Below, one piece after another: positions 8,359 through 56,525 of a DNA stretch of 64,000 bases. The stretch spans positions 558,001 through 622,000 of the forward strand of contig NZ_OPYL01000001.1 of assembly GCF_900343125.1 (NCBI RefSeq). Reading direction: 5' to 3'. This stretch comes from Dysgonomonas sp. Marseille-P4361 (GTDB lineage Bacteria; Bacteroidota; Bacteroidia; Bacteroidales; Dysgonomonadaceae). A program made the position numbers and the translations under genes. Below the pieces are notes generated by a model. The model had not been told where the DNA came from. It saw nothing but the letters and a program-made list of their open reading frames with translations, and did no database searches. The first letter of the stretch is position 1, and every line of letters starts with the position of its first letter.

Positions 8359-10356
8359 ATGAATGCAAAATTACACACTTTGAGCTTTATTATAGTATTA
8401 GCTCTATTTACTACATCAATTAATTCAAATGCACAAGTTACAATAGGAAGTAATATTACTCCCAATAATGGAGCCTTGCTCGATCTAAAAGAAGAACATA
8501 CTTCAGGAGGGGAAGCAAACTCTAGAAGAGGGCTTGGTCTACCTAGAGTAAAAATAACAGAAAAATATAGTCTTAAAGATGTTATTGAAGGCTATGAATC
8601 GTTAGCAGATAAGGATAAAGAAGACCTCTCAGCATCTCATATAGGATTGGTAGTATATAATATGAATCCCTTTAGACCTGACCAATGTTCTACAGCTCAA
8701 TCAGGCGTAATGGTATGGACCGGAGATGGTGGTTGGGAGAATATTTTGAATCATCAAGGAGAATATCAAGGGGATATAGCCACACGAAGAGCAGATAGCC
8801 TTATTTTGGTAAAATTCTATGATGTTTGTGGAGGAGATAACTGGGTTGAAAAAAACCGAAGAAACTGGAAATCGGAGAAACCTCTGCACGAATGGACCGG
8901 AGTGAGTGTGGAAACAAATGCTGACGGAACTCCAAAACTGTGTGGTCGTGTGACACAACTAAGACAGGTCAGTGCCGCTAGAAATGGTAGTACTATCCCT
9001 ACTGATATTTTTAACCTGAGTGAGTTGAGAGAGCTTAGGATAGGTAGTACCGAGAAAGACAATGGATATGTAGATATAACAGATGTCCATAAACTGAAGA
9101 AATTGGAGGACTTTATGGTTCGCAACATTAATATAACATCGGGTATTCCGAATTCGATAGGAGAGTTGATTAATTTAAAAAAATTGGATATAAGCTCATG
9201 CAAAGGTTTGGAAGATAGCCATATACCGGCATCTTTAACTTCTATGACAAGCTTGGAGGTGGTAGAATTATATAGCAATGATTTGGGCGGCTCTATCCCT
9301 GATGATATAGGAAACCTGGTTAATCTAAAAACCTTGGATTTAGACAATAATAAATTAACCGGAAGTATACCTAGTTCGATAGGAAAATTAGTTAAATTAT
9401 TAAAAATAGAAATGATCAAGAACCAACTGAGCGGTGAAATACCGGCAGAGATAGGGAATATGACCTCTTTAACTAGTATAGCACTCTCTACTAATAACTT
9501 TACTAGTATATCTCCTCAATTGGGAATAAATGCAGCTACAAATGCTCCTAATATTATAGATTTTTTAGCAGCAAATTGTAAAATCACTAATTTACCTAAA
9601 GAACTAGCGCTTATGCCAGAACTGACAACTATTTCATTAAGTAAGAATGAGATAAATCAGAATATTCCAGTAGAGATAGCGCAGATGGACAAGCTTAAAT
9701 ATTTATATTTACATCATAATAAAATATATGGTCCCATTCCTGCTGAGTTTGGTTCATCGCCCAGTATGTACGATCTCGACCTTAGTTTCAATCAGTTGAC
9801 AGGTGGAATTCCCGAAGAGTTGGGAAATTCGCAATCAATTGTTTATCTGAATTTAGAAACCAATATGAATCTAGGGGGACAACTGCCCGCTTCGTTAGCC
9901 AATATGGGAAAGATTGGAACGCTTAATATTGGCCAATGTGGATTGACCGGAACTATCCCAGAATCCTATGCAAACCTTTCAGCTACATTAGAAGTGTTTA
10001 ATGCAGATAGGAATAGACTGGAAGGTACACTACCTACTTTCTTTACAAGCTTTCCCAAGCTTTACGCACTCACATTGTTTGAGAATAATTTTACAGGAGA
10101 AATTCCGGCATCTTATAACAACTTTCCGAGAATCAATGCTAGCCAGTTTACTCTGCAAATACAAAATAACTACCTTTCGGGAGGAGATGTGCCTACCAAT
10201 ATTATTACTGCAGTCAACAGGCAGCCATCAGAAAGTCAGTCAACAGAGACTAATCCTATCAGGGTACAGATCTGTCCACAACTTTATACTACAGGCACAG
10301 GTGGCTCGAATAACAAGCCATTCAACAATTTCGATGCCTGTATGCCTAAACCATAA
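8359..10356 (+). CDS. secreted module protein with plant-type leucine-rich repeats
   Basis: The 665-residue product has a signal peptide ending NSNAQ and the shared N-terminal module (VTIGSNITPNNGALLDLKEE, GLGLPRVKI, HIGLVVYNM, GVMVWTGDGGW) over about 26-140. An LRR-capping segment follows (FYDVCGGDNWVEK..NW, W.GV.V), then about 15 LRRs of the plant receptor type, for example LVNLKTLDLDNNKLTGSIPS. It ends in FDACMPKP without a recognisable type IX sorting tail. LRRs of this form bind proteins or glycans, so it is probably a surface or secreted adhesin or ligand trap (inference). It is convergent with a frameshifted AraC-type regulator gene, sharing a terminator. Confidence 0.85.
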   Translation: MNAKLHTLSFIIVLALFTTSINSNAQVTIGSNITPNNGALLDLKEEHTSGGEANSRRGLGLPRVKITEKYSLKDVIEGYESLADKDKEDLSASHIGLVVYNMNPFRPDQCSTAQSGVMVWTGDGGWENILNHQGEYQGDIATRRADSLILVKFYDVCGGDNWVEKNRRNWKSEKPLHEWTGVSVETNADGTPKLCGRVTQLRQVSAARNGSTIPTDIFNLSELRELRIGSTEKDNGYVDITDVHKLKKLEDFMVRNINITSGIPNSIGELINLKKLDISSCKGLEDSHIPASLTSMTSLEVVELYSNDLGGSIPDDIGNLVNLKTLDLDNNKLTGSIPSSIGKLVKLLKIEMIKNQLSGEIPAEIGNMTSLTSIALSTNNFTSISPQLGINAATNAPNIIDFLAANCKITNLPKELALMPELTTISLSKNEINQNIPVEIAQMDKLKYLYLHHNKIYGPIPAEFGSSPSMYDLDLSFNQLTGGIPEELGNSQSIVYLNLETNMNLGGQLPASLANMGKIGTLNIGQCGLTGTIPESYANLSATLEVFNADRNRLEGTLPTFFTSFPKLYALTLFENNFTGEIPASYNNFPRINASQFTLQIQNNYLSGGDVPTNIITAVNRQPSESQSTETNPIRVQICPQLYTTGTGGSNNKPFNNFDACMPKP

Positions 10357-10390
10357 TTGCAGAAGGGTATAGGTTAAATATAAACAATAA

Positions 10391-10430
10391 TAAAAGGTCA
10401 TGAGTGATAGAAAGCCCATGACCTTTTTAT
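10391..10430. terminator. bidirectional terminator between LRR gene and regulator
   Basis: An 11-bp stem (AAAAGGTCATG at 10392-10402 with CATGACCTTTT at 10417-10427) has A-rich and T-rich flanks, so it can end transcription in both directions. Confidence 0.75.
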
Positions 10431-10501
10431 ATTATAAGAACGTATAAATAAGCACAGAACAGAATATCCCTGCTTGTTACTTCTATTGGGCAGGTGATAT
10501 T

Positions 10502-12272
10502 CTAATCTTCTTTTATTTCGTTATCATCTGCTTGTCCTACTCCTTTTTCCAATTCTTTCTTTACTTGTCTTAGTTCGCTAGGACTCATCCCAAACTCTTC
10601 TTTAAACAGGCGGTAGAAAGTGGAATCAGAAGAGAACCCCGATTGTATTATAATTGTGCTAACACGAAGAGATTCATCTACTACAACTTGTCGATGAGCA
10701 TAATGCAATCTGTAGCTATTTATATAGTCGAAGAAGGTTTTTCCCGTTGCTGCTTTAATTTCTTCTGTAAGGTATTGTCTATTTGTGTTCAAATCTCTAG
10801 CTAGGTCTTCTCTAGTGAGATTAGGATTCCGAAATGGCTCTTCTTCCCGCATGTATGCTTCAATTCTGCTAAATAAAGATGGTTCTTGTCCTAACTTTTC
10901 TGTCTCTTCTCCTATAATCTCTTTTGCCAAGACTACTAATTTTGTTGATTCCTTGTGTTGCTTCGAAAGATCTTTGTTTTGTTTGAAAAGAACCATGTTC
11001 TTCTCTTTTAGCTTTCTGTTGTTGCGTCTTTGCATGAACAAAATAAAACAGATAAGTAATAATAAAAATAGCCAGTCCGGCGACTAAGAGCTGTTTGCTC
11101 TCTAATTCAGCCTTAGCCTTAGCCTCTTGCATTTTTACTTTTTCTAATTCAAATCCGGCTGTCAGTTTTTCTATCTGTAAAGGGACATTCTCCTGATACA
11201 TAGAATCATTTCTTTGAGAAAGTTCTTTATGTAAGAGTAAGGCTTCCTTATACTTGTTTTGCTTCTCTAAAATATTTATTTTATCATATTTTAGCCCAGA
11301 TGCAGTGTCTCTCATACCTATTCCGTTATAGTATTCCATTGCTGTCTCTAGGTGTTTTAGTGCTAAGCTATAATCCCCAATAAGAGTGTAGTAATTAGAC
11401 TGAACTATATGAATTAGAGGAATTGCTGTTCTTTTTATATTATCAGTTGGCAACGCTTTCATCTTATCGATATAGAGTTTTGCTTTATCTTTGTCCTCCA
11501 TTTTGATATATATCAATGCGTATTCGGAGTAGATTAGATATCTACAATCTTCGTACTGCTCTGTATCGGTTGAGTGTCTTTCAATCCATTCTTCAAATTC
11601 TTTGCAAATTTCAAGGGCTTGATCATATTTTTTATTTTGATCCAAAGCTCCTATTGCACTTTCATATAATCCAATAACCTTATTGGGGGCTTGATCAGAC
11701 ATTAGTTTTCGAGTCTGTTCTATCATTTTCATTGCATATTCTTCTCCCAAATCTAATTTCCCTGTTAGTCGATAAGCCTGAGAGAATAATAGATTTATGT
11801 TGATGTCTTTGAAAGGATGTCCATGTTTTTCAGCTTTTTTTTGCATAATTTTCAAATTATACATTGCCAGACCATAGTAGCCATGATTCATATATATATG
11901 AGTTAGATACATATAAGGATCACCACTTTGAAACTCATCACCCAAATCATTTAAGACACTTATGCAGTATAGAAGACTATCTACATTCCTTTCGTTAGCA
12001 TAGGCTCTTGACAGGATTTCATATCCCTTGGTCAAATATTTAACATCATTTTGTTTCTGGGCCTCATTTATTAAATCTTTAGCAGATTTCTTCGCAGTTA
12101 GCTCTTTGTTTTCTTCCTGTTTAGCATAAATTTCCATTAGTTGGAGTTTTTTTCTCCCGTGTGCTTGTTCTATCTTATTCAATAAGCTGTCAGTTGGACT
12201 TGTGTTGCTGAGTACTTGTAAGCAGATAGTGCAGCAAAGTATTGCTACTGTGAGAAATCTTTTCTTTTGCAT
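10502..12272 (-). pseudogene. TPR-transmembrane-AraC regulator, frameshifted
   Basis: Two minus-strand frames together encode one regulator. The first, from the ATG at 12272, has a signal peptide (MQKKRFLTVAILCC..), periplasmic TPR helices and a membrane segment (LLVAGLAIFIITYLFYF). The second continues with MQRRNNRKLKEKN, a coiled coil and an AraC/HTH_18 domain with LTREDLARDLNTNRQYL and STFYRLFKEEFGMSPSEL, to 10502. They join at an A4 run (11040-11043; T4 on the coding strand). Removing one T gives LFMQRRN, which matches LFYMNRRN of the intact paralogue at 35009. An upstream ATG at 12305 is less likely since it precedes the signal peptide with HPYYTHKHTT. Either the gene is broken, is slipped reversibly, or the base is a sequence error. 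Confidence 0.8.
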
Positions 12273-12367
12273 AGTAGTGTGTTTATGTGTGTAATATGGA
12301 TGCAAATATCGTAAAATATGTGGATAATATGTATCTTTCTTAATTATATAATGATCTTGTTTTAAGG

Positions 12368-13213: not shown

Positions 13214-14944
13214 CTAATCAACAGCATTCTTTAATTCAGTAGGAGTCATCCCAAAGGTATCTTTGAAAGCTCTGTTAAATGTCCCTTTTGTATGAAATCC
13301 GGCTTCAAGATAAACCTCTGAAATAGGCTTAGTTTTATCTTTAACTATTAAACTATAGGCATATTTTAAGCGAAAAGTGTAGATGTATTCATTGTACGTT
13401 TTTCCTGTTTGTCCTTTTACTGCTTCGATTAAGTATTGTCTGTTAGTTCCCATTTCGAGAGCTAATTCTTCGCGAGTAAGGTCCGGATTACGGTATACTT
13501 GAGATTCTTTCAAATATAAGTCAAGCTTATTTACCAATTTCTGACTTGGAGAGGTGACTGGTAGATCTTCTTCTGATTCTTTATCTTTCTGCAGCTGTAA
13601 GTCTTGTATCTGCTTATTGCCTTTTTCTATTTCCGAAAACTGATTAACTAATTGTTTATTCTTTTTCTTCAATATTTTAGCATTCCTTCGAGATACATAT
13701 ATTATATAAGTAAATAATAATAATACTAGAAAAAAACCGAATAGAGCGTTTTGCATAGATCTCAGTTTTATTTTATCTCTTTCAGATTCTAATTTTAACT
13801 TATCAACATTGTATAATGTTTGTATCTCTGCTATCTGGTTAGAAAAGCTTTCTGCGCTAATAGAATCATTTAGCTGGTACAAATCGCGAAGAAGACTGTA
13901 GGCTTCACTATTATCACCGGCTTCATGTAAGATGTCAGCTTTGATTAAATTACCAATGATATAGTTATAAGAATTCTTATAGATCACTTTAGAATGAACA
14001 GAGTCTAGAGTATGATTTATATACATTTTAGCTTTATTATGATCTTTTTTTGCAGAGTAATATTGTGCTTCTACTTCATAATAAGCGTGTATAAGGGGAG
14101 AATCTTTTAGATGTTCAGAGTAAATCTTTTTTGATTCATCAAGTATTTTCCTGGCATTTTCAAGTTCTCCTTTTTTTACATATGCTAATGCCTTTTCATT
14201 GTTTATTACATACTTAGAAAGGTAATAAAAGAAAGTATTTGATTTGGAAATAGCATAATCCTTTTCGATCTTACGTTTAACACTGTCATTAATGACAATA
14301 ACACTGTCATAGTCTTTTAATAAAATAAATGCATGAGCCATCCCTCTAAATGGGTTGTGGTACGAAAAAGGCTTTTTGTCTGTGTTGTTGTCATAAAGAG
14401 AATAGGCTTTTCTGAAGCTTTCCAAGGCCTCTTTTCCTTTCTTTACATGCAAATAGCAGACGCCTAACAGATAATAAGCTTCGTATTCGAAGATTGGAAA
14501 GGTCCCTAAGTCTCCCTCTTTTAAAATTCTATCTATATATATTAATGCTAAATCATACTTATTGTCTGATAGATATTTGTGTACAATCGAATTAGTAAAC
14601 TTAATTTTTAAAAATTGATATAATTCAGTTTGACTTTTGGAAAACCTATTAAATTCATTTTTTAATAAGTTGAGTTCGTTAAAGCCTAAATGAATATAAT
14701 GAGCTATGGAATCCTCAGAATAATTGATTTGATAATATCCACTTTTACAATAATATGCAAATGCCAGATAGAGATGATTAGATTGTTTTATAGCTTCTTT
14801 TTCCAAGGCAACAATTGTTGATAAATCTTTTGTGTCTATTTGTTCTTTTAGTTTATCTAGCTTATCAGTGTTGCTGCAAATAATATTATCGCTTGCTATG
14901 AAGAACACGAAAATAATTAAGAATCTAAATAAAATATTGCTCAT
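13214..14944 (-). CDS. TPR-transmembrane-AraC one-component regulator
   Basis: The 576-residue product starts with a signal peptide or anchor (FLIIFVFFIASDNIICS), has TPR helices in the periplasm (for example YYLLGVCYLHVKKGKEALESFRKAY), one membrane segment (ALFGFFLVLLLFTYIIYV) near two thirds of its length, a cytoplasmic coiled coil, and a C-terminal AraC/HTH_18 domain (LTREELALEMGTNRQYL, GTFNRAFKDTFGMTPTEL). It should sense an envelope signal and act on DNA directly, without phosphotransfer (inference from layout). It is divergent from the module gene at 15604, its likely target. CACACAACATG precedes the start. Confidence 0.88.
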   Translation of the reverse strand: MSNILFRFLIIFVFFIASDNIICSNTDKLDKLKEQIDTKDLSTIVALEKEAIKQSNHLYLAFAYYCKSGYYQINYSEDSIAHYIHLGFNELNLLKNEFNRFSKSQTELYQFLKIKFTNSIVHKYLSDNKYDLALIYIDRILKEGDLGTFPIFEYEAYYLLGVCYLHVKKGKEALESFRKAYSLYDNNTDKKPFSYHNPFRGMAHAFILLKDYDSVIVINDSVKRKIEKDYAISKSNTFFYYLSKYVINNEKALAYVKKGELENARKILDESKKIYSEHLKDSPLIHAYYEVEAQYYSAKKDHNKAKMYINHTLDSVHSKVIYKNSYNYIIGNLIKADILHEAGDNSEAYSLLRDLYQLNDSISAESFSNQIAEIQTLYNVDKLKLESERDKIKLRSMQNALFGFFLVLLLFTYIIYVSRRNAKILKKKNKQLVNQFSEIEKGNKQIQDLQLQKDKESEEDLPVTSPSQKLVNKLDLYLKESQVYRNPDLTREELALEMGTNRQYLIEAVKGQTGKTYNEYIYTFRLKYAYSLIVKDKTKPISEVYLEAGFHTKGTFNRAFKDTFGMTPTELKNAVD

Positions 14945-15603
14945 GTTGTGTGATTTGCGTGTGTAAAGATACTTATTACATATTAATAAATAGAAAGAAA
15001 ATATAGGGATAGAGATTATTTCATACCCATGTAGTCTATTTATTCATATTCGAGTACAAAGTAAGAATAAGGATTTTGCATAGTCTCTTTATTCTTTTTA
15101 TAAATGAGCGAAATTGCAATAAAAGGTCTTTTTTTTGCATATATGGCACTTGCATGGAAGGGACAATTCTCTTTTTTCGAAAAATGACAAGGTTATAGCG
15201 TCGATTAGTGTGAAAAAATATTTCAATCTTTTAACTTTTTAGTTGAAAAAGATCTCTGGAGTAAGGAGAGTTCTCTAACATTAAATATTTTTCAAATAAG
15301 TCCTTTTTTTAGGAAGGGTTTTAGGAAATAACTAGATGTTGCTCTATCTGATATAAAATATTTCCAGGAGACTTGTTAATCTATTATTTTATATAATATT
15401 TTGATTGTAAGGTTATTGCTGTATAAGTATTTGATTTTGCAAAAGAGGGTTCTGACGAAGGCCATAAAACTATACATTCGCTTCCGTTAATGAACATAGT
15501 TCGATAAAGCACGAAACAGTAAAGCAGTCATTATTATATTTAATCTTGCTGCTTTATAAAAATTATGCATACACAATATTTACAAACTTAAGCTAACATA
15601 TTA
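14945..15603. other. divergent control region between regulator and FISUMP module gene
   Basis: The 660-base region holds a box at 15111-15157 shared with 19244-19287 and several TTTTGCA motifs. No clear -33/-7 promoter pair was found. GCATACACAATATTTAC lies about 30 bases before the start at 15604. I saw no gene. Confidence 0.5.
15111..15157 (+). promoter_or_regulatory. candidate operator shared with 19244-19287
   Basis: AATTGC-AATAAAA-TCTTTTTT-TGC-ATA-TTGCAT is common to both stretches. The box begins 168 bases before the start of the regulator at 14944; the other begins 175 bases before the start of the regulator at 19070. The conserved place relative to two related regulators supports a control function (inference). 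Confidence 0.4.
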
Positions 15604-17067
15604 ATGAAAAGAAATCGTTTATTGCTGCTACTTCTTACTGTAGCTTTTTTTATAAAGATAGATTTAGGAGCTCAAGTCACGATCGGATCAAATAATGAGC
15701 CCAATGAAGGTTCTCTGCTTGATCTGAAAGAATATGGAGACGAAGAATCAAAAAAAGGAGGGCGATCAGCTTTAGGTGGATTAGGATTACCAAGAGTAAA
15801 ATTAAGTAAAATCAAACCGCAAACTTCTACAGAACTGGCAGCTTCCATTGGCAATACAGGAGAATGGGTGCTGAAAGATCATATAGGACTCGTTGTTTAT
15901 AGTGCTGTAGCTGATCAATGTGCATTGACCCCAATTGAGACAGGAGTACATGTGTTTGATGGCGTAGAATGGCAGCCGTTAGGGATACCTAAAAGCTATA
16001 AGACTGAGATGGCAGGAAATTCTGACCGTAGCGACTGGAGGTCTGCTTGGGGAGACAAAGTTATTATACATGGAGAAAAAAAAGATGCTGCAGGAAAAAT
16101 AATTTACAAAGAGTTTATTTCTGGAGATTTTGGTCAGGCAGGACGTTGGATGACAACAAATATAGCCGCTTTCCAATACGATACAGATCTCCCTCAGGAT
16201 CAATATCATTCGGCAGGACGTTTTTTATGGGGTGCCAGTGGAAATCCTGATAACAAATTAGATGTTGCCTATTGGGCATATCCAAGATTATCAGGCTCCG
16301 TTGTTGTAGATGGAGAAGCCGCCTCCGAGCAATTTTTAGAAAATCCATACATTGGCCTACTTTATACATGGGATGCCGCTACAGCAGGAAAAGGAGGGCA
16401 AGATGGTACATTAAATGTCGACTATCCTGATCCAAGTGGTGAAGCTTACGAAAATGGCCTGCCCGAGTGGGATGGCATGGGAGTACAACCAGCAAAGACC
16501 CAAAAGCGCCGTCAGGGGATTTGTCCGAAAGGCTGGCATGTCCCTAGTGACTATGAATGGACCGAGCTGGAACGAGAAATGATAAGGAATACGAGTCTTT
16601 ATGCAGACATGGATAATATAGACAATGGGGATGGTACTGAATTAGCAAAAGTTCAACAACCGCCTAATCCGGGAAGTCCTATTGGAGAGGATCCGTTAGC
16701 TATAGACGAAACTACACCAGCTGTTCCTGAATTGTTTAGAGGATCTACTCATGGAACTGCTATGAAAGGAGTTTGCCCTATTCCGGGATCAACTTACTCT
16801 GCCGAAGGTAAATCTTCAGTTTCTCATAAAGGGGGATTTAATTTATTCCTAACAGGGCGTATTATTATAGATTTGCCAAGAGCTGCAGGTTATAGCTCCT
16901 TATCTATGCCATGGTCATCTAGTACTTATGTAGGTAAAACAGATAATGCAACCGAAACTAGCTATGTGGCGATATGTCGTAATTTTCGACGAGATAAAGG
17001 GCAAATTTATCGTGCAGCCTATAAACGTGAGTATATGAATTCGGTGCGTTGTAAAAAAGATGATTAG
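15604..17067 (+). CDS. secreted module protein with FISUMP domain
   Basis: The signal peptide ends DLGAQ and the shared module follows (VTIGSNNEPNEGSLLDLKEY, GGLGLPRVKL, HIGLVVYS, GVHVFDGVEWQPLG). The rest, to residue 487, is a FISUMP-type domain (Fibrobacter succinogenes major paralogous domain): YIGLLYTWDAATAGKG, then GICPKGWHVPSDYEWTELE near 304, a GGFNLFLTGRI strand and a terminal NSVRCKKDD. Such proteins are secreted or surface-held and have a C-type-lectin-like fold by general annotation; their ligands are unknown to me. The divergent neighbour at 14944 is the likely regulator. It ends at a terminator shared with the convergent regulator gene. Confidence 0.88.
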   Translation: MKRNRLLLLLLTVAFFIKIDLGAQVTIGSNNEPNEGSLLDLKEYGDEESKKGGRSALGGLGLPRVKLSKIKPQTSTELAASIGNTGEWVLKDHIGLVVYSAVADQCALTPIETGVHVFDGVEWQPLGIPKSYKTEMAGNSDRSDWRSAWGDKVIIHGEKKDAAGKIIYKEFISGDFGQAGRWMTTNIAAFQYDTDLPQDQYHSAGRFLWGASGNPDNKLDVAYWAYPRLSGSVVVDGEAASEQFLENPYIGLLYTWDAATAGKGGQDGTLNVDYPDPSGEAYENGLPEWDGMGVQPAKTQKRRQGICPKGWHVPSDYEWTELEREMIRNTSLYADMDNIDNGDGTELAKVQQPPNPGSPIGEDPLAIDETTPAVPELFRGSTHGTAMKGVCPIPGSTYSAEGKSSVSHKGGFNLFLTGRIIIDLPRAAGYSSLSMPWSSSTYVGKTDNATETSYVAICRNFRRDKGQIYRAAYKREYMNSVRCKKDD

Positions 17068-17234: not shown

Positions 17235-19070
17235 TCAGCTTATAATATTTCTTAACTCGTTTGGAGTCATGCCATAAGCTTCTTTAAAAGCATTATAGAA
17301 AGTAGCTTTTGAATGAAATCCCGATTCTTCCAGGATATCAGTGATTGTTTGGTTCTGATTACTTATTATAAGTTCATAGGCGTATTTTAATCGGTATGAA
17401 TATATAAATTCATTAAAAGTTTTACCTGTTTTCTCTTTTATAGCTTTTATTAGGTACTGTCTGTTGGTACCAATAGATTGGGCTATTTCTTCTCGAGTAA
17501 TTTTGGGATCTAAATAAATCTTAGTATTGGATAAATATTGTATCAGCTTATCCATTATAGCTCCATCTGTATCTTCAGGTTGATTTTCTTCATTGGTTAT
17601 ATTTTTATAAGCTGATTGAAGTTCTGTTATCTGTTTATTTCTAAGCTCTATTTCTTTATATTGATTGTAAAGCTGGATATTCTTTCTTTTTAAATTCTTC
17701 TTATTTCTCCATATAATATAGATAACAAGGAGTAAAAGAATAAATGATATAGCAAATATTAGAAGTACCATCTGAGTATTCTTTAATTTCAGATTAGTCT
17801 CATTTATTAAGAATTCAGCCTCTTTAAGTTCGTGCGTCGTTTGCATTTCTGCAAATTCATTCGAAAAATGGATAGCATTTATGGAATCATTCGTATTGTA
17901 TGTTTTATAGAGTAAGTCAAAAGCTTCCTTATTGTTCCCTCCAGCATTTAGAGCTTTAGACAATGCCAAATTCGAAAGCAAATAGGAATAAGGTTGTTGG
18001 TCAAGAGTGATTCTGTTTGTTATTGATTTAGCATACTCTATTGCTCTTTTATTATCGCCAATAAGCAGATAATATTCGACTTCAATAAAATAATAGATGT
18101 CAAAATCCTGATGGAATTTATCAGCATTCATCTTTTGTATATATGGTTTTATCTTATCTAGCTCTTCTCGCGCTTTTGCTTTCTCCTTAAGACCAATGTA
18201 TGCTTTTGCTTTATAGCATGAAATTCTGTTCTTGAAGAAGTTATATTTGAAGTCGTCATCAGCATTGTCTCCTCGCAGTTTTCTTGAAAGTTGATATTCG
18301 TTTTCTATTTTATTTATCAGACTATCTGAAATAGCAAGGGCTTCTTTATATTTGCCCATCTGGTCATATGCTATAGTAGCTCCTTCCATAGAGGAATAAT
18401 AACGATATGCTCCTGAATAATATTCTTCAGAGCCTTTTTTAGACGCAATTTCAGCCTCTATATTCATCGCTTCTCTGAAGTTTTCAAGAGCCTCTGTCGG
18501 CTTCTTGGTATATAGATACGCTATGGCTATTAGACTATGAGCTTGACTCTTAAAGTGTTCCGTTTTCCCTATAATAGAATCTTCCAAAGCATTTTGTATC
18601 TCGCTTAAGGCAATGTTATATTTACCTTCATCAATGCATAAGGTTGCTCTGGTGGCTACTGCCATCACTCTGCTCGTGAGGTATACTTTTTGTTCTTCTT
18701 TGGTGCTGTTCTTGTATCTGTCTTCTTGTATATATAGATCAAGATATTTCGTCGTTTGTTTAATATGGAACTTCATGGAATCTCGATCACCCTTTGTTGC
18801 CGAATGATAGATTCTCCTTCTATATGCATTAGCTAGATATAAATAGTTATTTTGTTTTTGAGCTTCTTTTTCTAGCTCCTTGTTTAAGTAAACATCTGTC
18901 TGATATATTCCACTATAATGATCAAGAAGTTCCAATTTCTCCTTCCCTTCCGATTTGTTGATTATATTCATAATGCTATCAGCTGTAGATCTGTCCTTGT
19001 TTGTAGAAACGACAGGAGAAGTAATTCCTAAAAAAGTGATTAAGAATAGAGAGAAATAATACTTTGTCAT
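17235..19070 (-). CDS. TPR-transmembrane-AraC one-component regulator
   Basis: The 611-residue protein has an N-terminal signal peptide (YYFSLFLITFLGITSPVVS), a long TPR region (repeats such as AIAYLYTKKPTEALENFREAM), one membrane segment (MVLLIFAISFILLLLVIYIIW), a coiled coil, and a C-terminal AraC domain with ITREEIAQSIGTNRQYL and ATFYNAFKEAYGMTPNEL. It is the closest in organisation to the regulator at 13214-14944. It diverges from two module genes at 19639 and 22054, which are its probable targets. Unlike most of the other regulator genes, it lacks the ACACA leader before the ATG. Confidence 0.88.
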   Translation of the reverse strand: MTKYYFSLFLITFLGITSPVVSTNKDRSTADSIMNIINKSEGKEKLELLDHYSGIYQTDVYLNKELEKEAQKQNNYLYLANAYRRRIYHSATKGDRDSMKFHIKQTTKYLDLYIQEDRYKNSTKEEQKVYLTSRVMAVATRATLCIDEGKYNIALSEIQNALEDSIIGKTEHFKSQAHSLIAIAYLYTKKPTEALENFREAMNIEAEIASKKGSEEYYSGAYRYYSSMEGATIAYDQMGKYKEALAISDSLINKIENEYQLSRKLRGDNADDDFKYNFFKNRISCYKAKAYIGLKEKAKAREELDKIKPYIQKMNADKFHQDFDIYYFIEVEYYLLIGDNKRAIEYAKSITNRITLDQQPYSYLLSNLALSKALNAGGNNKEAFDLLYKTYNTNDSINAIHFSNEFAEMQTTHELKEAEFLINETNLKLKNTQMVLLIFAISFILLLLVIYIIWRNKKNLKRKNIQLYNQYKEIELRNKQITELQSAYKNITNEENQPEDTDGAIMDKLIQYLSNTKIYLDPKITREEIAQSIGTNRQYLIKAIKEKTGKTFNEFIYSYRLKYAYELIISNQNQTITDILEESGFHSKATFYNAFKEAYGMTPNELRNIIS

Positions 19071-19638
19071 AAAATTGTATAGTCTGATTTTTTTAAGATA
19101 GAGTCAAGACTTATTGAAATATCTCTTTTAAGAAAACTTAAAGGAAATTTTTCAATGTAGTTGGAATTGTGCCTTTGATTTTTAAAATATGTGTGATACT
19201 GCAAAATTAATATTAAATATGATATTTCTGTATTGTAAATTGGTAATTGCGAAATAAAAACATCTTTTTTGCGGATAATTGCATCTGTAGTTTTGATATT
19301 TCGTACTCTTTTGAAAGAATTAGCAGTTTCTTGATTGCTCGTAATAGTCAGATAACCAGATGTAAATATTTTTTTGCGCTCTGAATACTCCCTTTTTGCA
19401 TTTTTATACTATCTCTTCTGCCATTTTTTGCGTAATTGCGCCAAATTATCAAAACGTGACTATACATTAAGCAACGCACACTTTAGAACTATATCCTAAT
19501 TGTCCTACTTTAAGTATAGTTCTTAATAAATACACAATTACACATTTTTTAGCACATGAAACTTTTCAATATCAATTAAAATAACAGCTTTTTTGTTATA
19601 ACACAGCAAATTTACATAACGAAACAATAAATTCACAC
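19071..19638. other. divergent control region with repeated TTTTTGC boxes
   Basis: The 570-base region holds the shared box at 19244-19287 and further TTTTTGC(G/A) boxes near 19370, 19393 and 19424, the last continuing as GCGTAATTGCG much like GCGGATAATTGC in the first. TTATAACACAG at 19596 and TTCACACATG at the start codon resemble leaders of related genes. No gene was seen. Confidence 0.5.
19244..19287 (+). promoter_or_regulatory. candidate operator shared with 15111-15157
   Basis: The stretch begins TAATTGCGAAATAAAA, continues through TCTTTTTTGCGGATA and ends ATTGCATC. See 15111-15157 for the shared pattern. It is 175 bases before the regulator start and about 350 bases before the module gene. 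Confidence 0.4.
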
Positions 19639-23595: not shown

Positions 23596-23721
23596 AGTCA
23601 TCGTTTTTTCATATCTATTTTTTACGATCAAAGGAATTCATTTATCAAAGGCGGACGTTATTGTCCGCTATCGGACATCTGTGTTTGATGTATTTCTCAA
23701 ATTATAAGCAGTTTATGTTTT

Positions 23722-23737
23722 TGGTCCGTCGTTTGCT
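23722..23737 (+). promoter_or_regulatory. candidate sigma-54 (-24/-12) promoter of the export operon
   Basis: TGGTCCGTCGTTTGCT has the invariant GG and GC exactly ten bases apart and fits TGGCACGNNNNTTGCW at 10 of 12 defined positions. Transcription would start near 23748, about 18 bases before the ATG at 23766. The same operon encodes an NtrC-type sigma-54 activator. Confidence 0.6.
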
Positions 23738-23765
23738 TATAAGAAGGGGAATAAATAAAAAGTGT

Positions 23766-25010: not shown

Positions 25011-25013
25011 ACT

Positions 25014-25682: not shown

Positions 25683-25700
25683 CTTTAAACAGATCATATT

Positions 25701-26951: not shown

Positions 26952-26957
26952 ACTGTT

Positions 26958-28247: not shown

Positions 28248-28252
28248 AAGAA

Positions 28253-28258
28253 AGGAGG
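28253..28258 (+). promoter_or_regulatory. Shine-Dalgarno site that fixes the TolC start
   Basis: AGGAGG stands five bases before the ATG at 28264. Strong Shine-Dalgarno sites are uncommon in this phylum, and this one favours 28264 over the in-frame ATG at 28237. Confidence 0.7.
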
Positions 28259-28263
28259 TACTT

Positions 28264-29751: not shown

Positions 29752-29795
29752 TAATACGGTATTATTGATTATTTTTATCGTAATAAAGAAATGAT

Positions 29796-31157: not shown

Positions 31158-31161
31158 ATGT

Positions 31162-34688: not shown

Positions 34689-35008
34689 TTGTGTTACTAA
34701 TAATATTACTGCATTATACATTTTCTGTTTGTAAAGTTTGCTCTGTTTAGCTGAGGTGCCTGCTGCTGAAAATTAGATTGTAAAATTTGGATCAAAATTA
34801 AATGATAAAAAACAAGGGGGAGTCTTGTTCGTTCAAAAGAAGGTCTCATGAGGGCAGTAATAGTATTCTCTGTGCAATTTAACATATCATTCAGGCAAAA
34901 TGCTTATTGTCAGAGGTTTGTTTTTTTCGTGTTTAGTGTTTATGTTGTTATTAATTTGCGATCTTTATGCCTTGTTTATTTAGATATATGCACACACACG
35001 CAGAATTT
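34689..35008. other. divergent control region of module gene and regulator
   Basis: The 320-base region between divergent starts holds GCACACACACGCAG shortly before the regulator ATG and GTAACACAA before the module ATG on the other strand. Boxes like those at 15111 and 19244 are not clear here. No gene was seen. Confidence 0.45.
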
Positions 35009-49167: not shown

Positions 49168-49177
49168 TATCTACTGA

Positions 49178-50995: not shown

Positions 50996-51412
50996 ACTAT
51001 CACATTTGAGGATTTAATTGGTTAGAAATTAAAAAGAACATAGATGTTAAAATTATTTTATATTAAAACTTGTTTAGTGAATATCTGTATACGATATTGG
51101 GAGATATTCTTCATGGCTTACTTTAATAAATCTTTCAAAGATTGTATGTTGAGGGTTAAATCTTGGGTTAAAAATGGGTTATAAATATAAAAATCTTATT
51201 AACCTGATTAATTTTAACCCGATGGACTATATCATTTGTAAATAAGCTTTTCAGGTGTTTTTGTTCGTTTATTAACCTATATTCACCTATATTTTGTGTA
51301 TTTTTGCGAAGGCACATAAAGTATTTTTCTTTTTTGTGTTGAAGAGTTCGCTTATGGGCATGATTAGGAGACGATTGAAGTTTTATCTAGGTTAGTGGTT
51401 AGTAGCATATTT
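50996..51412. other. divergent control region of the mannan locus
   Basis: Between the starts of the locus (50995) and its regulator (51413) lie three GGGTTA-type direct repeats and three inverted TTAACC boxes (51153-51279), and a TATTTTTG (-7-like) at 51299 without a clear -33 partner. No gene was seen. Confidence 0.6.
51153..51279. promoter_or_regulatory. candidate operator array (GGGTTAAA boxes)
   Basis: GGGTTAAA at 51153 and 51165 and GGGTTATA at 51176 are 12 and 11 bases apart. Inverted TTAACCT/TTAACCC copies stand at 51199, 51214 and 51273. Repeated half-sites at about one helical turn suit binding of several winged-helix units, as for OmpR/SARP-type regulators such as the one encoded next to it (inference). 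Confidence 0.5.
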
Positions 51413-53899
51413 ATGAGATTATTTTGTGCATTTATAATTTTATGCTTTTTTGTTCCTCAGATTTCTTTTTCTCAAGGATTAAAATTCATTGGAGGAGAGG
51501 AATCTATAGATAAGCGTACTTCTTATAATGTTTTTAGTCGTAGGTCAGTATCTTTTACAGGAGAGTTTGATATTAACTTTAAACTTATTATATATTCTCC
51601 GGGACAGATAGGTCATATTACCCGAATTAAGGATAAAAATAATAATAAAATATATAATCTTTTTTACGATGGTCAGGGTGATCATTGTGTCTTTAGATTA
51701 AATGAAGAAGGGAAAAGTAGCCTGATCATCGCAGAGATTGATAAAAATAAGCTTGCGAGTACAAACTGGCTTGATGTAAATATTGCCTTTGATCTTACAA
51801 ACGATTGTATTATACTAACTATTCATGATAATGCTTTTAAAGCTGATAAAGTCAGCTTACCCAAAGAGTTTGAATCGGAAATATTCTTTGGAAAGAGTGA
51901 TTATATTATTGATGTTCCATCTTTTGCAATAAGAGATCTATCGATAGGTAACAATAGACGATATTCTTTCCCCTTAAGAGAGAGTTCCGGAGATGAAGTG
52001 CATGATAGTGAAAAGAATGTGGTAGGAGATGTATCTAATCCCGAATGGCTGATTAATGATTCTTATAACTGGAGTTTTAAGGCATCATATACATCTAGAA
52101 CTCATGCAGGATCAGATTATAATAAGGCGAAGAATGAAATGTATTACTTTAATAGAGACTCAATCTTTATATATAATACAAAGACAAGTGAAAGGCGAAC
52201 CCTTGTTTTTGAGAACCAATGCCCAGTAGAGCTAAACCTTGCAACAAGCTTCGTTGATGTTGTAAATAATAAGTTGTTTGTATATGAAGTTTATTATAAT
52301 AGGCCATATGAAGGGCCGACTATAGCTAGTCTTGATCTTGGATCAATGCGTTGGACTGTTGAAAGTTATAATAATCTAGGTAAAGAACTGCATCATCATA
52401 GTTATTTCTTTGAGCCATCAAAAAAAGAGTTTGTCATTTTCGGGGGATTTGGTAATATGATTTATAATGGAACATTCTATTCATATAGTCTTACTTCTCA
52501 AACATGGAAGCCCCTGACACAATTTAAAGGAGATAAGATATTTCCAAGATATTTCTCTTCTATAGGATATTCAGAGACTCAAAATGCAGCTTATTTATTC
52601 GGTGGAATGGGGAATGAGTCAGGGGAGTTTATTGTAGGTCGAAAATATTTCTATGATTTTTACAAGATTGACCTTAACAGTAAAGAGATAACAAAGAAGT
52701 GGGAAATCCCATGGAATGGCTATAATGTAGTTCCCGCTAGAGGGCTAGTCTTGTCAGATAGTGCGTCTTTCTATGCGTTATGTTATCCGGAGCATATGTC
52801 CAAGTCGTTTCTTAAACTATATCAGTTTTCTATAGGTGATGGAGATTGTAAGATATTAGGCGACTCTATCCCTATCTATTCTGACAAAATAACCACTAGA
52901 GCGAAGCTGTATTTTGACGATCATTTAAATACTTTGTTTGCTCTTGTACAAGAGTCCAAAGATGACATTTCTTCTTCTATCAAGCTATACGCCTTGGCAT
53001 CACCTCCTATATCAGCGGAAGATTTGGAGAACTATTCTAAAACAAGTACATCATGGAAAGTCTTTTTGATGATAGGAATTGTTGGTATTGTTTGTACTGG
53101 AGGTTGCCTCTTGATATATCGTAAAATATCTAAACGAGAGGTTAAATCTAAAAATAAGATTAAGCAAAGTCTTCTCGATCAGCAGAAGATTAATTACAGG
53201 TCAAATGCAGTCTATTTATTCGGAGAATTTAAAGTGTTTGATAAACGCAATAGGGATATTTCCCATCTATTCAGCTTAAGATTAAAACAAGCTTTTTGTT
53301 TAATACTAAAGTATAGTGATAAGGAAGGCATTACTTCTCAGCGATTGAGTGATAAATTGTGGCCAGGAAAGCCAGAAGATAAAGTGAAGAACTCTAGAGG
53401 AGTAACGATAAATCACCTAAGGAAAGCTTTGAGTGATGTTGATGGTATTGAGCTGATTCATAGTAAGGGGTGCTTTAAGATTGTTCAAACCCCAGAATGT
53501 TATTGCGACTATACTCGATGTATTGAGATTTTATCAGGAGGCATCAATGATGATATGGAGGAATTGCTAGAGATTCTGAATCAAGGGAAATTCCTAAGTT
53601 TCTCTAATCAGGCAATATTTGACTCTTTTAAGTCTTCTGTAGAAAGAATTTTAGAGCCCACTTTGCTAACGGAAATGGAAAAAAGCTTTACAGCTCAAGC
53701 TCATGAAACAACAATTAAGCTTTCTAAGGCAATTTTTAATATAGACCCTCTTAATGATAATGCTCTGTCTTATCAAATAAAGTCATTGCTGGCTTTAAAG
53801 CTTTTAGATGAGGCACAGTTGAGATATCAAACCTTTATTATTGAATACAGAAAGACAATGGGAGATCAGTACCCTTATTCTTTCCAAGACTTGTTATAA
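51413..53899 (+). CDS. membrane one-component regulator: kelch-like sensor, TM, winged helix, BTAD
   Basis: From the ATG at 51413 (828 residues; a GTG at 51395 is possible) the protein has a signal peptide (MRLFCAFIILCFFVPQISFS), a LamG-like N-terminal sandwich, a kelch/galactose-oxidase-like propeller (FEPSKKEFVIFGGFGNMIYNG.., NAAYLFGGMGNES), one membrane helix near 547-567 (WKVFLMIGIVGIVCTGGCLLIY), a winged helix from about 595 (NAVYLFGEFKVFDKRNRD, TSQRLSDKLWPGKPEDKVKN, VTINHLRKALSD) and a C-terminal BTAD-like helical domain. The output is of SARP type, the sensor is extracytoplasmic, and both sit in one chain. It is divergent from the mannan locus, so probably its activator. Confidence 0.82.
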   Translation: MRLFCAFIILCFFVPQISFSQGLKFIGGEESIDKRTSYNVFSRRSVSFTGEFDINFKLIIYSPGQIGHITRIKDKNNNKIYNLFYDGQGDHCVFRLNEEGKSSLIIAEIDKNKLASTNWLDVNIAFDLTNDCIILTIHDNAFKADKVSLPKEFESEIFFGKSDYIIDVPSFAIRDLSIGNNRRYSFPLRESSGDEVHDSEKNVVGDVSNPEWLINDSYNWSFKASYTSRTHAGSDYNKAKNEMYYFNRDSIFIYNTKTSERRTLVFENQCPVELNLATSFVDVVNNKLFVYEVYYNRPYEGPTIASLDLGSMRWTVESYNNLGKELHHHSYFFEPSKKEFVIFGGFGNMIYNGTFYSYSLTSQTWKPLTQFKGDKIFPRYFSSIGYSETQNAAYLFGGMGNESGEFIVGRKYFYDFYKIDLNSKEITKKWEIPWNGYNVVPARGLVLSDSASFYALCYPEHMSKSFLKLYQFSIGDGDCKILGDSIPIYSDKITTRAKLYFDDHLNTLFALVQESKDDISSSIKLYALASPPISAEDLENYSKTSTSWKVFLMIGIVGIVCTGGCLLIYRKISKREVKSKNKIKQSLLDQQKINYRSNAVYLFGEFKVFDKRNRDISHLFSLRLKQAFCLILKYSDKEGITSQRLSDKLWPGKPEDKVKNSRGVTINHLRKALSDVDGIELIHSKGCFKIVQTPECYCDYTRCIEILSGGINDDMEELLEILNQGKFLSFSNQAIFDSFKSSVERILEPTLLTEMEKSFTAQAHETTIKLSKAIFNIDPLNDNALSYQIKSLLALKLLDEAQLRYQTFIIEYRKTMGDQYPYSFQDLL

Positions 53900-53915
53900 C
53901 TCGAATAATATAGAG

Positions 53916-53958: not shown

Positions 53959-53983
53959 CGAATATATTGAATTTGTGTTAATA

Positions 53984-55156
53984 TTAGAGCTTCCAGTAAA
54001 CTAAACTAGTCCGGATTGGACTATTCCTAGAGTCTCCCTTTTTTAGAGTCCAGCTGGTAATGTTCGGTCTATGCATTGAGATTATTACTTTTTCTCCTTC
54101 CAAGAAAAAGCCTGCAAGGGTAACGCTGTAACTGTAATCTTGCCAATTAGCATCATATTGTTTGACAACGACTAGATCTAATTCTGCAGAATCTTCTATC
54201 TTGCTAAGGTTGCCATCCTTTTGTAAATAGATGTAAAAAGGAAGTCTATATTGATCATTTACATTTATTCGCCCATACAAGCGTATAGAAAAAGCATAAC
54301 TCCCTGTTTCGTTTATCTCAATTTCTTCGAAGGGAACCTTTGTAGCTCCGGACGGGTCGCCATTGCTGGGTCTTGTTGCTGAAATTTCTTGATCCTTTGT
54401 TAAATTTTTCACATATACAGAAACAATATCTCCACTTCCGATTGAAATATTGCTACATGTTTCTCCTAAAAAATTAATATTAAAATTTGTTGTTGTTGGA
54501 GTTGACACTGATGGAGTCCCAAATATGCGGTAAGTTACCTGTCCTCCACCTAGGGATAACTTACCTTCCACTCTTTCCATATACAATCCATTTCCTATAG
54601 AAACAGGATCTGTTCCGGTGTACGATCCTCCATTACCTCCTAGATAAGGAACAGTAAGAAGTCCTTCGAAAAATTGGTTCTCTTTATATTCGTTTGGAGA
54701 CATTGTCTTACTTTTACACATTAGAGAAGATATCTCTGGTTGGATAACCGGACTATTATCTATTTTTCTCCACTCTTTTCCATCCCAAATATGTAAGCCT
54801 TGAAGGAAGACACTTGATGCATTGACATTATATACAATTAGTCCAATATGTTCTTTATCCTCTTCCGACTTAGAGTACGCAACATTACCTATTTTATAAC
54901 CTCCATTTCCATCGTCTTCAAACATAGGAAAGAGATTATTATTGTCAGTTAGGTTAACTCTAGGATGTAATAGCCCTTTTTCTGCTGTGGAGTTGTCATT
55001 AGAAGGGTTCTGAGGTGTATGTTCTTTGATTTCCAACAGAACCCCTTTGTTTGGTTCTATTCCAGAACCAATCGTCACTTGTGCATTGGTCTTTTCGAAT
55101 GAGTACAATGAGAAGACTAGGGTAAGTAAATAAACTGATTTTTTTAAATTTTTCAT
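53984..55156 (-). CDS. secreted module protein with a non-FISUMP C-terminus
   Basis: The 390-residue product has a signal peptide ending KTNAQ and the shared module (VTIGSGIEPNKGVLLEIKEH, GLLHPRVNL, HIGLIVYNV, GLHIWDGKEWRKID). Its C-terminal 240 residues are beta-rich and lack FISUMP marks. EGLLTVPYLGGNGGSYTG and the later YRIFGTPSVSTPTTTNFNINF with a Cys nearby resemble beta-sandwich repeats in secreted Flavobacteriia proteins. The end is VYWKL with no known sorting tail. ATCACACAATG is at the start, and the divergent neighbour is an AraC-type regulator gene, repeating the arrangement of the other module genes. Confidence 0.82.
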   Translation of the reverse strand: MKNLKKSVYLLTLVFSLYSFEKTNAQVTIGSGIEPNKGVLLEIKEHTPQNPSNDNSTAEKGLLHPRVNLTDNNNLFPMFEDDGNGGYKIGNVAYSKSEEDKEHIGLIVYNVNASSVFLQGLHIWDGKEWRKIDNSPVIQPEISSLMCKSKTMSPNEYKENQFFEGLLTVPYLGGNGGSYTGTDPVSIGNGLYMERVEGKLSLGGGQVTYRIFGTPSVSTPTTTNFNINFLGETCSNISIGSGDIVSVYVKNLTKDQEISATRPSNGDPSGATKVPFEEIEINETGSYAFSIRLYGRINVNDQYRLPFYIYLQKDGNLSKIEDSAELDLVVVKQYDANWQDYSYSVTLAGFFLEGEKVIISMHRPNITSWTLKKGDSRNSPIRTSLVYWKL

Positions 55157-55519
55157 TGTGTGATTTTGCTATTAATGTTTTCTCTTATGTAATGTGTGCT
55201 TATATTGTGTTTGTAGAAAGATCCTTTGTCTATCTGCCCGGAGGGTAGTTTTGTGTTTAGGCATTATTGCAAAGGTACTTCTTCGTCTTTTTAATTCATT
55301 TTTTCGCTTCCTACCCCAAGGACTCTAGCCTGTTTAGAATAAGTCATATTAATAATATGTGTGTATTAATCTGCTTATAATAAGAAGTTTGTCTGTTTGT
55401 GTCAAATTTGCTATTTGGATTATTATTGTCTGTTCTTTTTTTACTTTAATCATGGAGCTACACCAAAAAAGGAGTATTTTTGCTTATTGTTCTTGATTAC
55501 ATACACACACATATACACA
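55157..55519. other. divergent control region of module gene and AraC regulator
   Basis: The 363-base region ends in an ACA-rich leader, ACATACACACACATATACAC, directly before the ATG at 55520. GCATTATTGCAAAGG near 55261 faintly resembles the boxes at 15111. Nothing else was seen. Confidence 0.45.
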
Positions 55520-56525
55520 ATGAAACAAACTAATGTCCTTTCTTATGAGGATGCCTTTAGGAAATTTACACTAGGAGTCTTATTTATTATAATAGCGTCT
55601 TATGTCGTTGGAGGGTTTCTTTATCCTCTCCCTTATCCTATAAATTATTTTTTTCTGATAGGGGGAATTCTTAATATTGCCCCTATTATTGTAGTATTTA
55701 CAGTACCTATGGTTTATCTACGGAAAGTAATAAAGGCATTTCTGGCAATTATTATTATTCCTATCTACATAATAACTGTAATTTGCTTGCTAAAGGCTGT
55801 TGTTACTCCTCTGTTTTGGTTTATGGCATTGCCTATCTATATATATGCAGTATTTCCTTCGGGTAAAATACTTAGATGGTTAATAATATATGTAGGTTTC
55901 GTATTATCCAGTGTTGTTTTAGCCTTCATCTTGCAATATGTATTGTACGACAACGAACTTGTGGTTTATTATTCACTGTCGCTTTATCAAGCTCTACTGA
56001 CCGAGTTAGTGAATAGTTTTTTTGCTCTTATAATGATTTGTTATAGCTTGTATTATATACACAAATTTCATCAAATTGAGATGGATAGTCTGCTTTCTTC
56101 ATCTTCCCATATAGGAGAGAGAGTCTCTACCGTAGCTTTTGGCTTGGAGGATGAAGAATACGACAATAAAAAGTATGAACAGATTTACGAGCAGATAGAA
56201 AACTACTTAGAATCCAAAGAACCCTATCTTAGTCCTGATTTTAGAATCTCTCAGATGGCATTTGAACTTGGTGTAAATGTCGTCTATTTGGCAAAGGCTA
56301 TCCGTTATAAGAAAGATATGAACTTCAATAATCTGATCAATCATTATAGGATTGAGAAGGTGAAAAAGTTGATTGCAGGCAATGGATCAAAATATACAAT
56401 AGAATATATACCTTTCGTCGGGCTTTAAGAGCCAGTCTTCTTTTAATCGGGCTTTTAAGCTGCATATGAATACTACACCTTCCGAATATTATAAAATGAT
56501 TGAGTTGGCTAATGATGAAGACTAG
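55520..56525 (+). pseudogene. multi-TM AraC-type regulator, frameshifted in the last DNA-binding helix region
   Basis: From the ATG at 55520 (MKQTNVLSYEDAF) about six membrane helices (to about residue 180) precede a cytoplasmic AraC/HTH_18 domain (FRISQMAFELGVNVVYLAKAIRY). The frame then stops at 56428 after YTIEYIPFVGL. Restoring one TA unit after 56410 gives IEYIYLSSGFKSQSSFNRAFKLHMNTTPSEYYK and a stop at 56523-56525, a normal AraC ending. The present frame thus lacks half of the second helix-turn-helix. It has no TPR region, unlike the other four regulators, but the same divergent placement. Lost TA repeat, reversible slippage or sequence error cannot be told apart here. The longer opening at 55397 precedes the ACACAC leader and is unlikely. 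Confidence 0.8.

Follow-up and report, generated by a model that had tools for sequence, protein, structure and literature searches.

The HTCS of Bacteroidota combine a periplasmic sensor, a membrane passage and an AraC output, an arrangement that recurs in the regulators described here. In E. coli, the spacing between araI1 and araI2 is 21 bp. A single AraC-type monomer has two HTH units, which serve contiguous major grooves (PMC6018408), and Fib_succ_major is listed among DGR target protein domains (PMC4159848). Our searches of the open-access literature found nothing relevant on TPR-AraC, nothing on FISUMP (also in combination with Bacteroid) and nothing on Dysgonomonas surface lectins, while the titles and abstract starts on fimbriae with AraC/TPR held nothing on such regulators.

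The window analysed here is a stretch of 64,000 nt from Dysgonomonas sp. Marseille-P4361 (NZ_OPYL01000001.1, 558,001-622,000, forward strand), within which all positions below are counted. A sequence-only reading had proposed that six secreted proteins in it share an N-terminal module of five ordered blocks and that five AraC regulators stand beside them. Both proposals are borne out, and the open reading frames lie where that reading had placed them. The module aligns across all six proteins (M1-M6) with 20 invariant columns and all five named blocks present. Each protein begins with a signal peptide, judged by eye. M1 (8359..10356, plus strand; module 8434-8748) ends in a plant-type LRR domain, and M2 (15604..17067, plus; module 15673-15984) in a FISUMP domain. 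M3 (19639..22029, plus; module 19702-20040) continues through a middle part into a FISUMP-like C-terminus with no Pfam match. M4 (22054..23412, plus; module 22129-22464), a further FISUMP protein, starts 24 bp downstream of M3 with no regulator gene of its own adjoining, and the two probably share one operon. On the minus strand lie M5 (33525..34721; module 34293-34613), whose FISUMP domain was modelled as a C-type-lectin fold, and M6 (53984..55156; module 54758-55081), whose C-terminus has no Pfam match. Convergent with M6 is a Kelch-repeat protein (51395..53899, plus), which by eye we take to have a TM stretch and a C-terminus resembling a winged-helix regulator.

The regulator beside M1 is convergent with it and the other four pairs are divergent. 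The two types previously assigned to them, TPR-one-TM-AraC and poly-TM AraC with about six TM helices (TM counts from a hydropathy script), hold up, but two of the frames are broken. The TPR-TM-AraC regulator beside M1 (10502..12305, minus) consists of two overlapping frames that were left unmended, 10502-11041 for the HTH part and 10869-12305 for the TPR/TM part; among the A2 matches it likewise appears as two pieces, at G000:C11:568562-570272. The poly-TM regulator beside M6 (55397..56428, plus) has a frame that stops at 56428, before the HTH ends, with a remnant to about 56525; this frame has no Pfam match, and its HTH is a partial match across stop codons at 31.6 bits against a cut-off of 33.6. 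The remaining three are TPR-one-TM-AraC proteins beside M2 (13214..14944, minus), M3 (17235..19070, minus) and M5 (34967..36751, plus; the previously used start at 35009 is a later ATG within this frame). With the broken pieces (10502, 55397) scanned separately, HTH_18 or HTH_AraC lies over the curated cut-off in 10502 (piece), 13214, 17235 and 34967, and no histidine kinase or receiver domain matched in the five regulators at E 0.01.

A profile of the module gave 21 matches in the genome, two of them partial, with E from 3.5e-43 to 4.2e-8, and all 25 same-genus genomes searched have matches, 4 to 46 each. A module alignment, A3, was made from 78 of 85 non-redundant rows. About twenty secreted module proteins are encoded in this genome, mostly ending in a lectin-like domain. 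The module has no name in Pfam or NCBIfam, but it resembles a phylum-wide Bacteroidota N-terminal motif (QVGIGTTTP...GLLIPRV...GLLVYN...YYWDG.W) that has the same block order and, in most examples read, the same location after the signal peptide. The genus branch differs from this motif by QVTIGS and other fixed residues, and the profile connects the two weakly, with a best value of 4e-9 and, out of 296, 20 other genomes reached. From its sequence, the module looks like a branch of this common motif. It is therefore neither new nor restricted to the regulator-paired layout. A PDB sequence search returned one chance-level match for the module and none for M5.

Beyond the module, Pfam confirms an LRR head in M1 and FISUMP heads in M2, M4 and M5, where Fib_succ_major (PF09603) exceeds its gathering score; it does not do so in M1, M3 or M6, and TIGR02145 is over its cut-off in M5 only, among the six. 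For M3, Pfam gave neither FISUMP nor BACON, and M6 had no Pfam match at all; the M3 C-terminus groups by BLAST with FISUMP C-termini. In the same clustering, the FISUMP-type cluster takes in 62 of 87 C-termini, 54 of which carry a CPxGW motif. VIA gave the M5 model 10 matches with Z of at least 2, all of them to the Lcl C-terminal domain, to Mtd or to proteins recognised as, and which we take to be, C-type-lectin-fold proteins; with their modest scores they suggest a C-type-lectin fold for the FISUMP domain of M5. No match is listed over the module part of this model, a part that is barely covered, and the structure model of M6 failed (pLDDT 33). No fimbrillin or Mfa2 Pfam match was found in the six, and none of the 26 listed regulators linked to a module gene has a DUF3575- or Mfa2-like gene up to 4 genes away. 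Candidates tried and rejected were type IX secretion cargo (no TIGR04183 tail in the six), DGR diversification (0 matches to reverse transcriptase PF00078 in the genome at E 0.001) and phage origin, PHROGs at E 0.01 matching only the LRR protein, plus one weak match for 51395.

We favour, with moderate confidence, the view that these chromosomal genes encode a set of binding proteins for export, some of them under local membrane one-component control; the module proteins would then probably be adhesins or receptor-binding proteins. They might instead be periplasmic or secreted without surface exposure; the module would then be a domain for interaction or folding in the periplasm, with FISUMP as a structural part. 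Such a location would fit the lack of a lipobox in the module proteins (by eye) and of TIGR04183 among the NCBIfam matches of the six at E 1, in a genome that carries four type IX C-terminal tails. We nevertheless consider it unlikely, since the heads are strongly variable and four of ten wider-motif proteins have parts typical of exposed fibres (C1q in one, a YadA head in one and collagen in two, of which one match falls under the cut-off).

Seen from the regulators, the link to module genes is strong. In this genome, all eight AraC genes of the membrane one-component type adjoin a module gene (seven TPR-type, one poly-TM; two broken), as against none of the 12 other AraC genes (soluble 0/6, HTCS 0/6). 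At its own loci, membrane AraC genes account for 7 of the 35 genes directly next to a module gene (distance 1) and for 0 of the 171 further off. For the other genomes, AraC loci were chosen from A2 matches (E up to 1e-10), namely all those with frames below 700 aa by our reading of the list, and genes within 3 kb were counted as linked. A module gene is linked to 14/37 membrane one-component AraC genes of these relatives and to 2/33 HTCS (p = 0.0017), the HTCS controls being 32 stretches around HTCS and the genome's own HTCS standing outside both this comparison and the tree; the excess over soluble AraC (3/18) is not significant (p = 0.13). Identical regulator tails were merged for this comparison (95 rows). 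The regulator tree of the genus, which lacks one 129-aa fragment (94 rows), contains two module-dedicated clades, with 13/14 and 6/6 members linked against 6/74 elsewhere. It needs 8 linked/unlinked label changes compared with 22 in shuffles, none of 500 being as low. The two clades correspond to the two sensor types, TPR-one-TM and poly-TM. A modular family of exported proteins whose C-termini are exchangeable, tied to membrane AraC regulators more often than by chance, is supported. Tree congruence beyond related pairs was looked for and rejected.

From the module side, the claim that each protein has its own sensor proves too strong. In this genome 13 of 21 module matches, M4 among them, have no directly adjoining AraC gene, and in module-sampled relatives a membrane one-component AraC neighbour was found for 5/70 module genes and not for 65/70 (a duplicate contig end, L074, being left out of the neighbour counts).

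For the TPR-type clade, a candidate direct-repeat operator beside the gene could be recognised by its sequence pattern. Pairs of GCAA are spaced 21 bp apart in 11 cases and 22 bp in 8, other spacings occurring 0 to 5 times. Upstream of M2 lie two 21-bp tandems, one at 15416..15440 (minus), 163 bp from the gene and the second-best PWM match in the window, and a more distant one at 15114..15138 (minus) that lacks the TAT box. M3 is preceded by a strict GCAA-N8-TAT-N7-GCAA site at 19374..19399 (minus, 239 bp upstream) and a second, 22-bp tandem at 19247..19272 (minus), and M5 by a strict GCAA-N7-TAT-N7-GCAA site at 34874..34898 (plus, 152 bp upstream), which computational footprinting with three related gene pairs also picked up. 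A matrix built solely on L023 and L056 missed the M5 site and was dropped, and special DNA secondary structure in the M5 intergenic region was rejected (z +1.1). The strict pattern has 15 matches in the genome, four of them intergenic, and three of these four lie in the window.

As the operator was found post hoc, shuffles, an unguided scan, out-of-genus replication and a recount served as checks. Outside the four discovery regions there are 17 tandems, compared with 0.57 on average and at most 3 in 300 shuffles, and GCAA ranks first in the unguided scan of direct-repeat 4-mers. The tandem precedes 7/15 TPR-AraC-linked module genes and 8/659 control genes (p = 3e-9); with the discovery genes removed, it precedes 5/11 (p = 5e-7). 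The controls are genes that have 400 bp of upstream DNA and stand more than two genes away from any module or AraC gene. Every tandem of the linked module genes lies on the strand opposite to the gene, none on the same strand. Position -10 of the second box is T in 16/18 genus and 7/7 sister-genus sites, all found without that position, in a recount that excludes the L145 region near 13.4 kb and L150, both earlier added via a TAT-containing pattern. Independent regulators came from 20 stretches hand-picked from the top matches, giving 22 regulators; outside the genus there are 10 tandems against 1.0 expected by shuffling (maximum 5 in 300). At sister-genus loci with the wider motif, a regular expression of ours that 5/69 control genes also match, the tandem recurs, on the opposite strand at 5/5. 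No excess of GCAA tandems was seen beside unlinked membrane AraC genes, and neither tandem counts nor the direct-repeat 4-mer scan found an operator for the poly-TM regulators.

The regulators might run whole surface programmes, module genes being merely frequent island neighbours and the tandems serving regulator autoregulation. Related TPR-TM-AraC genes do adjoin Mfa-type fimbrial operons (DUF3575, Mfa2, fimbrillin) or, at L153 and L155, what we take to be SusC/SusD-like genes, and the L145 sites lie 5' of a regulator start. This alternative seems rather improbable to us. At L146 (6776), L147 and L150 the site follows the 3' end of the adjacent AraC gene and precedes the start of the module gene, and so cannot be the promoter of that AraC gene (six loci were left out of this site-position survey). 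In linked genes the site always has the same orientation towards the module gene, and linkage in this genome occurs at four separate places. That the tandem is an artefact of composition or shared ancestry, as AT-rich intergenic DNA, partly related discovery regions and several tandems from one array (L146, L147) might suggest, is very improbable given the dinucleotide shuffles, the exclusion of discovery regions, the spacing and strand specificity, the conserved box outside the pattern and the out-of-genus replication.

Based on the set of locally controlled binding proteins that we favour, a type I signal peptide would export each module protein, and the mature chain would start with the module at residue Q. 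The module may act as a common base for anchoring or oligomerisation, presenting at the surface a variable ligand-binding head that is most often FISUMP, with a C-type-lectin-type fold. Beside some genes, TPR-one-TM-AraC would sense a periplasmic signal via its TPR domain, and its cytoplasmic AraC domain would bind the tandem, whose two GCAA-led boxes repeat at 21 or 22 bp and which lies upstream of the module gene on the opposite strand, at a distance of about 40 to 370 bp; we infer that binding activates the gene. The six-TM lineage holds the same position, with no operator found. More speculatively, and with little weight from us, the TPR domain could bind the conserved, poorly ordered module N-terminal stretch of its own client in transit, so that the regulator gauges how far one surface binder is exported or consumed and tunes that binder's gene via the tandem operator. 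Individual lectin heads would then each have a closed export-sensing loop.

An anonymous, very abundant family thereby becomes a testable system with a candidate operator, a dedicated membrane-regulator clade and a lectin-type client, by which a gut-type bacterium might switch its surface binders one by one. If envelope or host signals make the regulators switch single binders, they offer a handle on how these bacteria choose what to stick to. The candidate operator also lets regulons be predicted, including two module copies of this genome, L025 and L031, that have the tandem upstream and no neighbouring regulator.

Compared with E. coli AraC and the AraC/XylS family, the regulators share the C-terminal HTH_18 and two boxes repeated at 21/22 bp, whereas their sensor part, a periplasmic TPR or a poly-TM domain, is connected across the membrane and the operator sequence differs. 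They are like the HTCS in having 21/22-bp repeats beside the gene, and 2 of the 33 HTCS sampled lie near a module gene, but our regulators have no kinase or receiver part and span about 580-620 aa instead of about 900-1400. The TPR-TM-AraC proteins beside Mfa-type fimbrial operons have the same architecture, and their client has a fimbrillin domain in place of the module; of two such fimbrillins examined, the one at L149 ends in FGE-sulfatase and the one at L088 in a sub-threshold Lcl_C match, both presumably C-type-lectin-like. Finally, FISUMP proteins (PF09603/TIGR02145) have the same C-terminal domain as M2, M4 and M5; what sets the present proteins apart is the N-terminal module, the local regulators and a genome in which no reverse transcriptase was found.

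The computation establishes a large exported protein family, two dedicated clades of regulators and, at module genes, a clade-specific candidate operator. The six secreted proteins of the window, M1 to M6 (at 8359, 15604, 19639, 22054, 33525 and 53984), share their N-terminal module and its layout beside regulators as the sequence-only reading described, with 20 invariant columns in their alignment. Across the whole genome (3.3 Mb, 13 contigs) the module profile has 21 matches, six of them inside the window, and a family-wide search recovered the module in 34/101 genomes, among them 25/25 of the genus, where each genome has between 4 and 46 matches. By hand count of titles, 46 named relatives of the module comprise 29 Dysgonomonas, 7 Dysgonamonadaceae MAGs, 8 Prevotella sp., 1 Parabacteroides and 1 Symbiothrix. 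The module starts near the protein N-terminus (median residue 26 in 104 near-complete copies), and Q1, G5, L16 and G36 are fully conserved in 78 aligned copies. Pfam gave it no name: each family matched at most three of 78 members, the best at E 0.0023. For the proteins themselves we infer a surface location and ligand binding, and a base function for the module. The swapping of heads behind it characterises the family in general and is not particular to regulated pairs.

A profile search of 296 genomes across the phylum found matches in 21, our own included, with E-values from 4e-9 to 9e-4 in the other 20. Near a signal peptide, these matches mostly read AQVGIGTTTP...KGLLIPRV.LT...GLLVYNT...GYYYWDG..W, and we take the module to be a genus-level branch of a wide Bacteroidota N-terminal motif. 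Of ten wide-motif proteins compared with Pfam, two matched collagen (one of them below cut-off), one matched C1q, one matched YadA head repeats and six had no match.

Of the five AraC regulators in the window, four (10502, 13214, 17235 and 34967) are of the TPR type with one TM stretch and one (55397) is poly-TM. HTH_18 exceeds the Pfam cut-off in four of the five, and a TPR model does so in 13214 and 34967 and falls slightly below in 17235. Two of the genes are not intact: 10502 (10502-12305) is spread across two frames and 55397 (55397-56525) is truncated early, with breaks near 11060 and 56425 that could be sequencing error or genuine decay; both were analysed unmended. Genome-wide, 20 HTH_18 matches divide into six hybrid two-component systems (HTCS, by length), six soluble proteins (no TM stretch), seven of TPR type (the four above plus C5:44513, C11:665978 and C11:261795) and the poly-TM 55397. 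Elsewhere on contig C11 (about 491-496 kb; L036:6430-10555), a module fragment has as its neighbour a TPR protein that contains a single TM stretch and gave no HTH match; this may be a decayed pair.

All eight membrane one-component AraC genes of this genome lie directly beside a module gene, and by coordinates none of the other twelve HTH_18 genes has one within 3 kb. Sampled from the module side, membrane AraC genes make up 7/35 genes at distance 1 and 0/171 beyond at our own loci, and 5/89 at distance 1, 1/78 at distance 2 and 1/328 further away in relatives. The proposal of a separate sensor for every protein holds for a minority (7/20 own module genes, leaving out the broken 10502, and 5/70 in relatives); most module genes are orphans, with no adjoining membrane one-component AraC. 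In 24 other genomes of the genus, 14/37 membrane one-component regulators are linked (within 3 kb of a module gene), compared with 2/33 HTCS (p 0.0017, significant) and 3/18 soluble regulators (p 0.13, not significant). Two HTCS genes, at L129 and L131, lie near module genes, one of them divergent at 191 bp. TPR-AraC genes lacking a module link adjoin other genes or, at five loci (L086, L087, L088, L149, L154), fimbrial genes (DUF3575, Mfa2); two fimbrillins that were domain-checked gave C-terminal matches, a weak one to Lcl_C (L088) and one to FGE-sulfatase (L149).

On the HTH tree, which rests on few columns and has many open forks, the linked label needs 8 changes versus 22 in shuffles (0/500 as low). 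One TPR-type clade is 13/14 linked (SH-aLRT 96) and one poly-TM clade 6/6 (SH-aLRT 97), against 6/74 for all remaining rows. On the module tree the same label clusters weakly (21 changes versus 24.8; 10/500); taken alone, the TPR-type label gives 10 versus 14.3 (0/500) and the poly-TM label 11 versus 12.5 (47/500). The regulators are therefore dedicated, and the modules are not.

Other potential regulators also neighbour module genes. Nine small proteins of one BLAST cluster, several of about 320 aa, recur beside them (L052, L054, L058, L064, L065, L067, L147); weak HTH_3/BetR matches in the one member tested suggest a third, soluble type. At L069:12634-15287 a LytTR response regulator and a TPR histidine-kinase-like gene directly follow module genes. 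Convergent with M6 is a Kelch-repeat protein (51395-53899) with an apparent TM stretch and an apparent winged-helix C-terminus, by this resemblance perhaps another one-component type. Between module genes, 23661-32463 holds what by eye we take to be an ABC exporter-like set, an outer-membrane-factor-like protein and a two-component pair.

The candidate operator emerged from an intergenic alignment of M5 and three related pairs, which revealed conserved GCAA boxes. With a matrix built from the three relatives, the M5 site (34874..34898) scores highest in the whole window, followed by one upstream of M2; a matrix from two relatives alone (L023, L056) missed the M5 site. The 14 TPR-clade regulators have 37 intergenic regions next to them, in which 11 GCAA pairs are spaced by 21 bp and 8 by 22 bp, versus 0 to 5 at other spacings, the 5 falling at 43 = 21 + 22. 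For unlinked membrane AraC and HTCS genes the adjoining regions yield 2 and 2, with L149, which belongs to the clade, counted in both the clade and the unlinked set. Excluding the four discovery regions leaves 17 such tandems (one, L023:6805, behind its module gene) versus a mean of 0.57 and a maximum of 3 in 300 shuffles, and an unguided 4-mer direct-repeat scan placed GCAA-21 top (1e-8), with GCAA-22 at 3e-4. A T at -10 of the second box, a position unused in finding the sites, occurs in 16/18 genus and 7/7 sister-genus sites, which points to (G)TAT-N7-GCAA as the likely two-helix half-site. The regulators would bind DNA and act as activators under a periplasmic signal.

Within 400 bp upstream of linked module genes the tandem lies on the opposite strand in 7/15 (5/11 without the discovery genes) and on the same strand in 0/15, at 39 to 366 bp from the start; control genes give 8/659 and 18/659. 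It is found at 2/11 own and 3/61 relatives' orphan or other module genes, and at 0/13 poly-TM-linked ones over the same 400 bp. Enrichment is at p 3e-9 for linked genes and 0.01 for own orphans. No exact tandem was found for M1 or M6. Two own module genes without an adjoining AraC (L025 and L031) have a tandem upstream; regulation from a distance is possible there. Over 2.0 Mb of loci the strict TAT pattern has 17 matches, of which 12, on our own reading, lie beside TPR-clade regulator or partner genes; in the whole own genome it has 15, versus 3 with a reversed control. Since 11/12 matches outside the window fall within ORFs, four are intergenic, and the window contains three of these, one behind 55397 and one upstream of each of M3 and M5.

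Replication used 22 previously unused TPR-type regulators from outside the genus, which gave 10 tandems versus 1.0 in shuffles (maximum 5 of 300 shuffles). At 5/6 sister-genus loci fetched, genes within three places start with the wide motif, and each of the five has an opposite-strand tandem upstream of such genes, a 98-aa ORF intervening at L196. L193, the sixth locus, carries two tandems and has no wide-motif neighbour. The module profile recovers only two of the sister-genus genes (E 2e-4 and E 7e-3), so kinship with the module rests mainly on the motif. The fifteen regulators from other genera have a wide-motif neighbour in 0/15 and a tandem in 3/15. An unguided scan of the replication set returned several 21-bp repeats in addition to GCAA-22, and 21/22-bp repeats are also raised beside HTCS genes (78 and 41 versus a mean of 15, at loci within L109-L142). 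The 21/22-bp spacing is therefore an AraC trait and the GCAA box the mark of the clade, and the repeat signal beside HTCS genes could help to map the operators of those systems.
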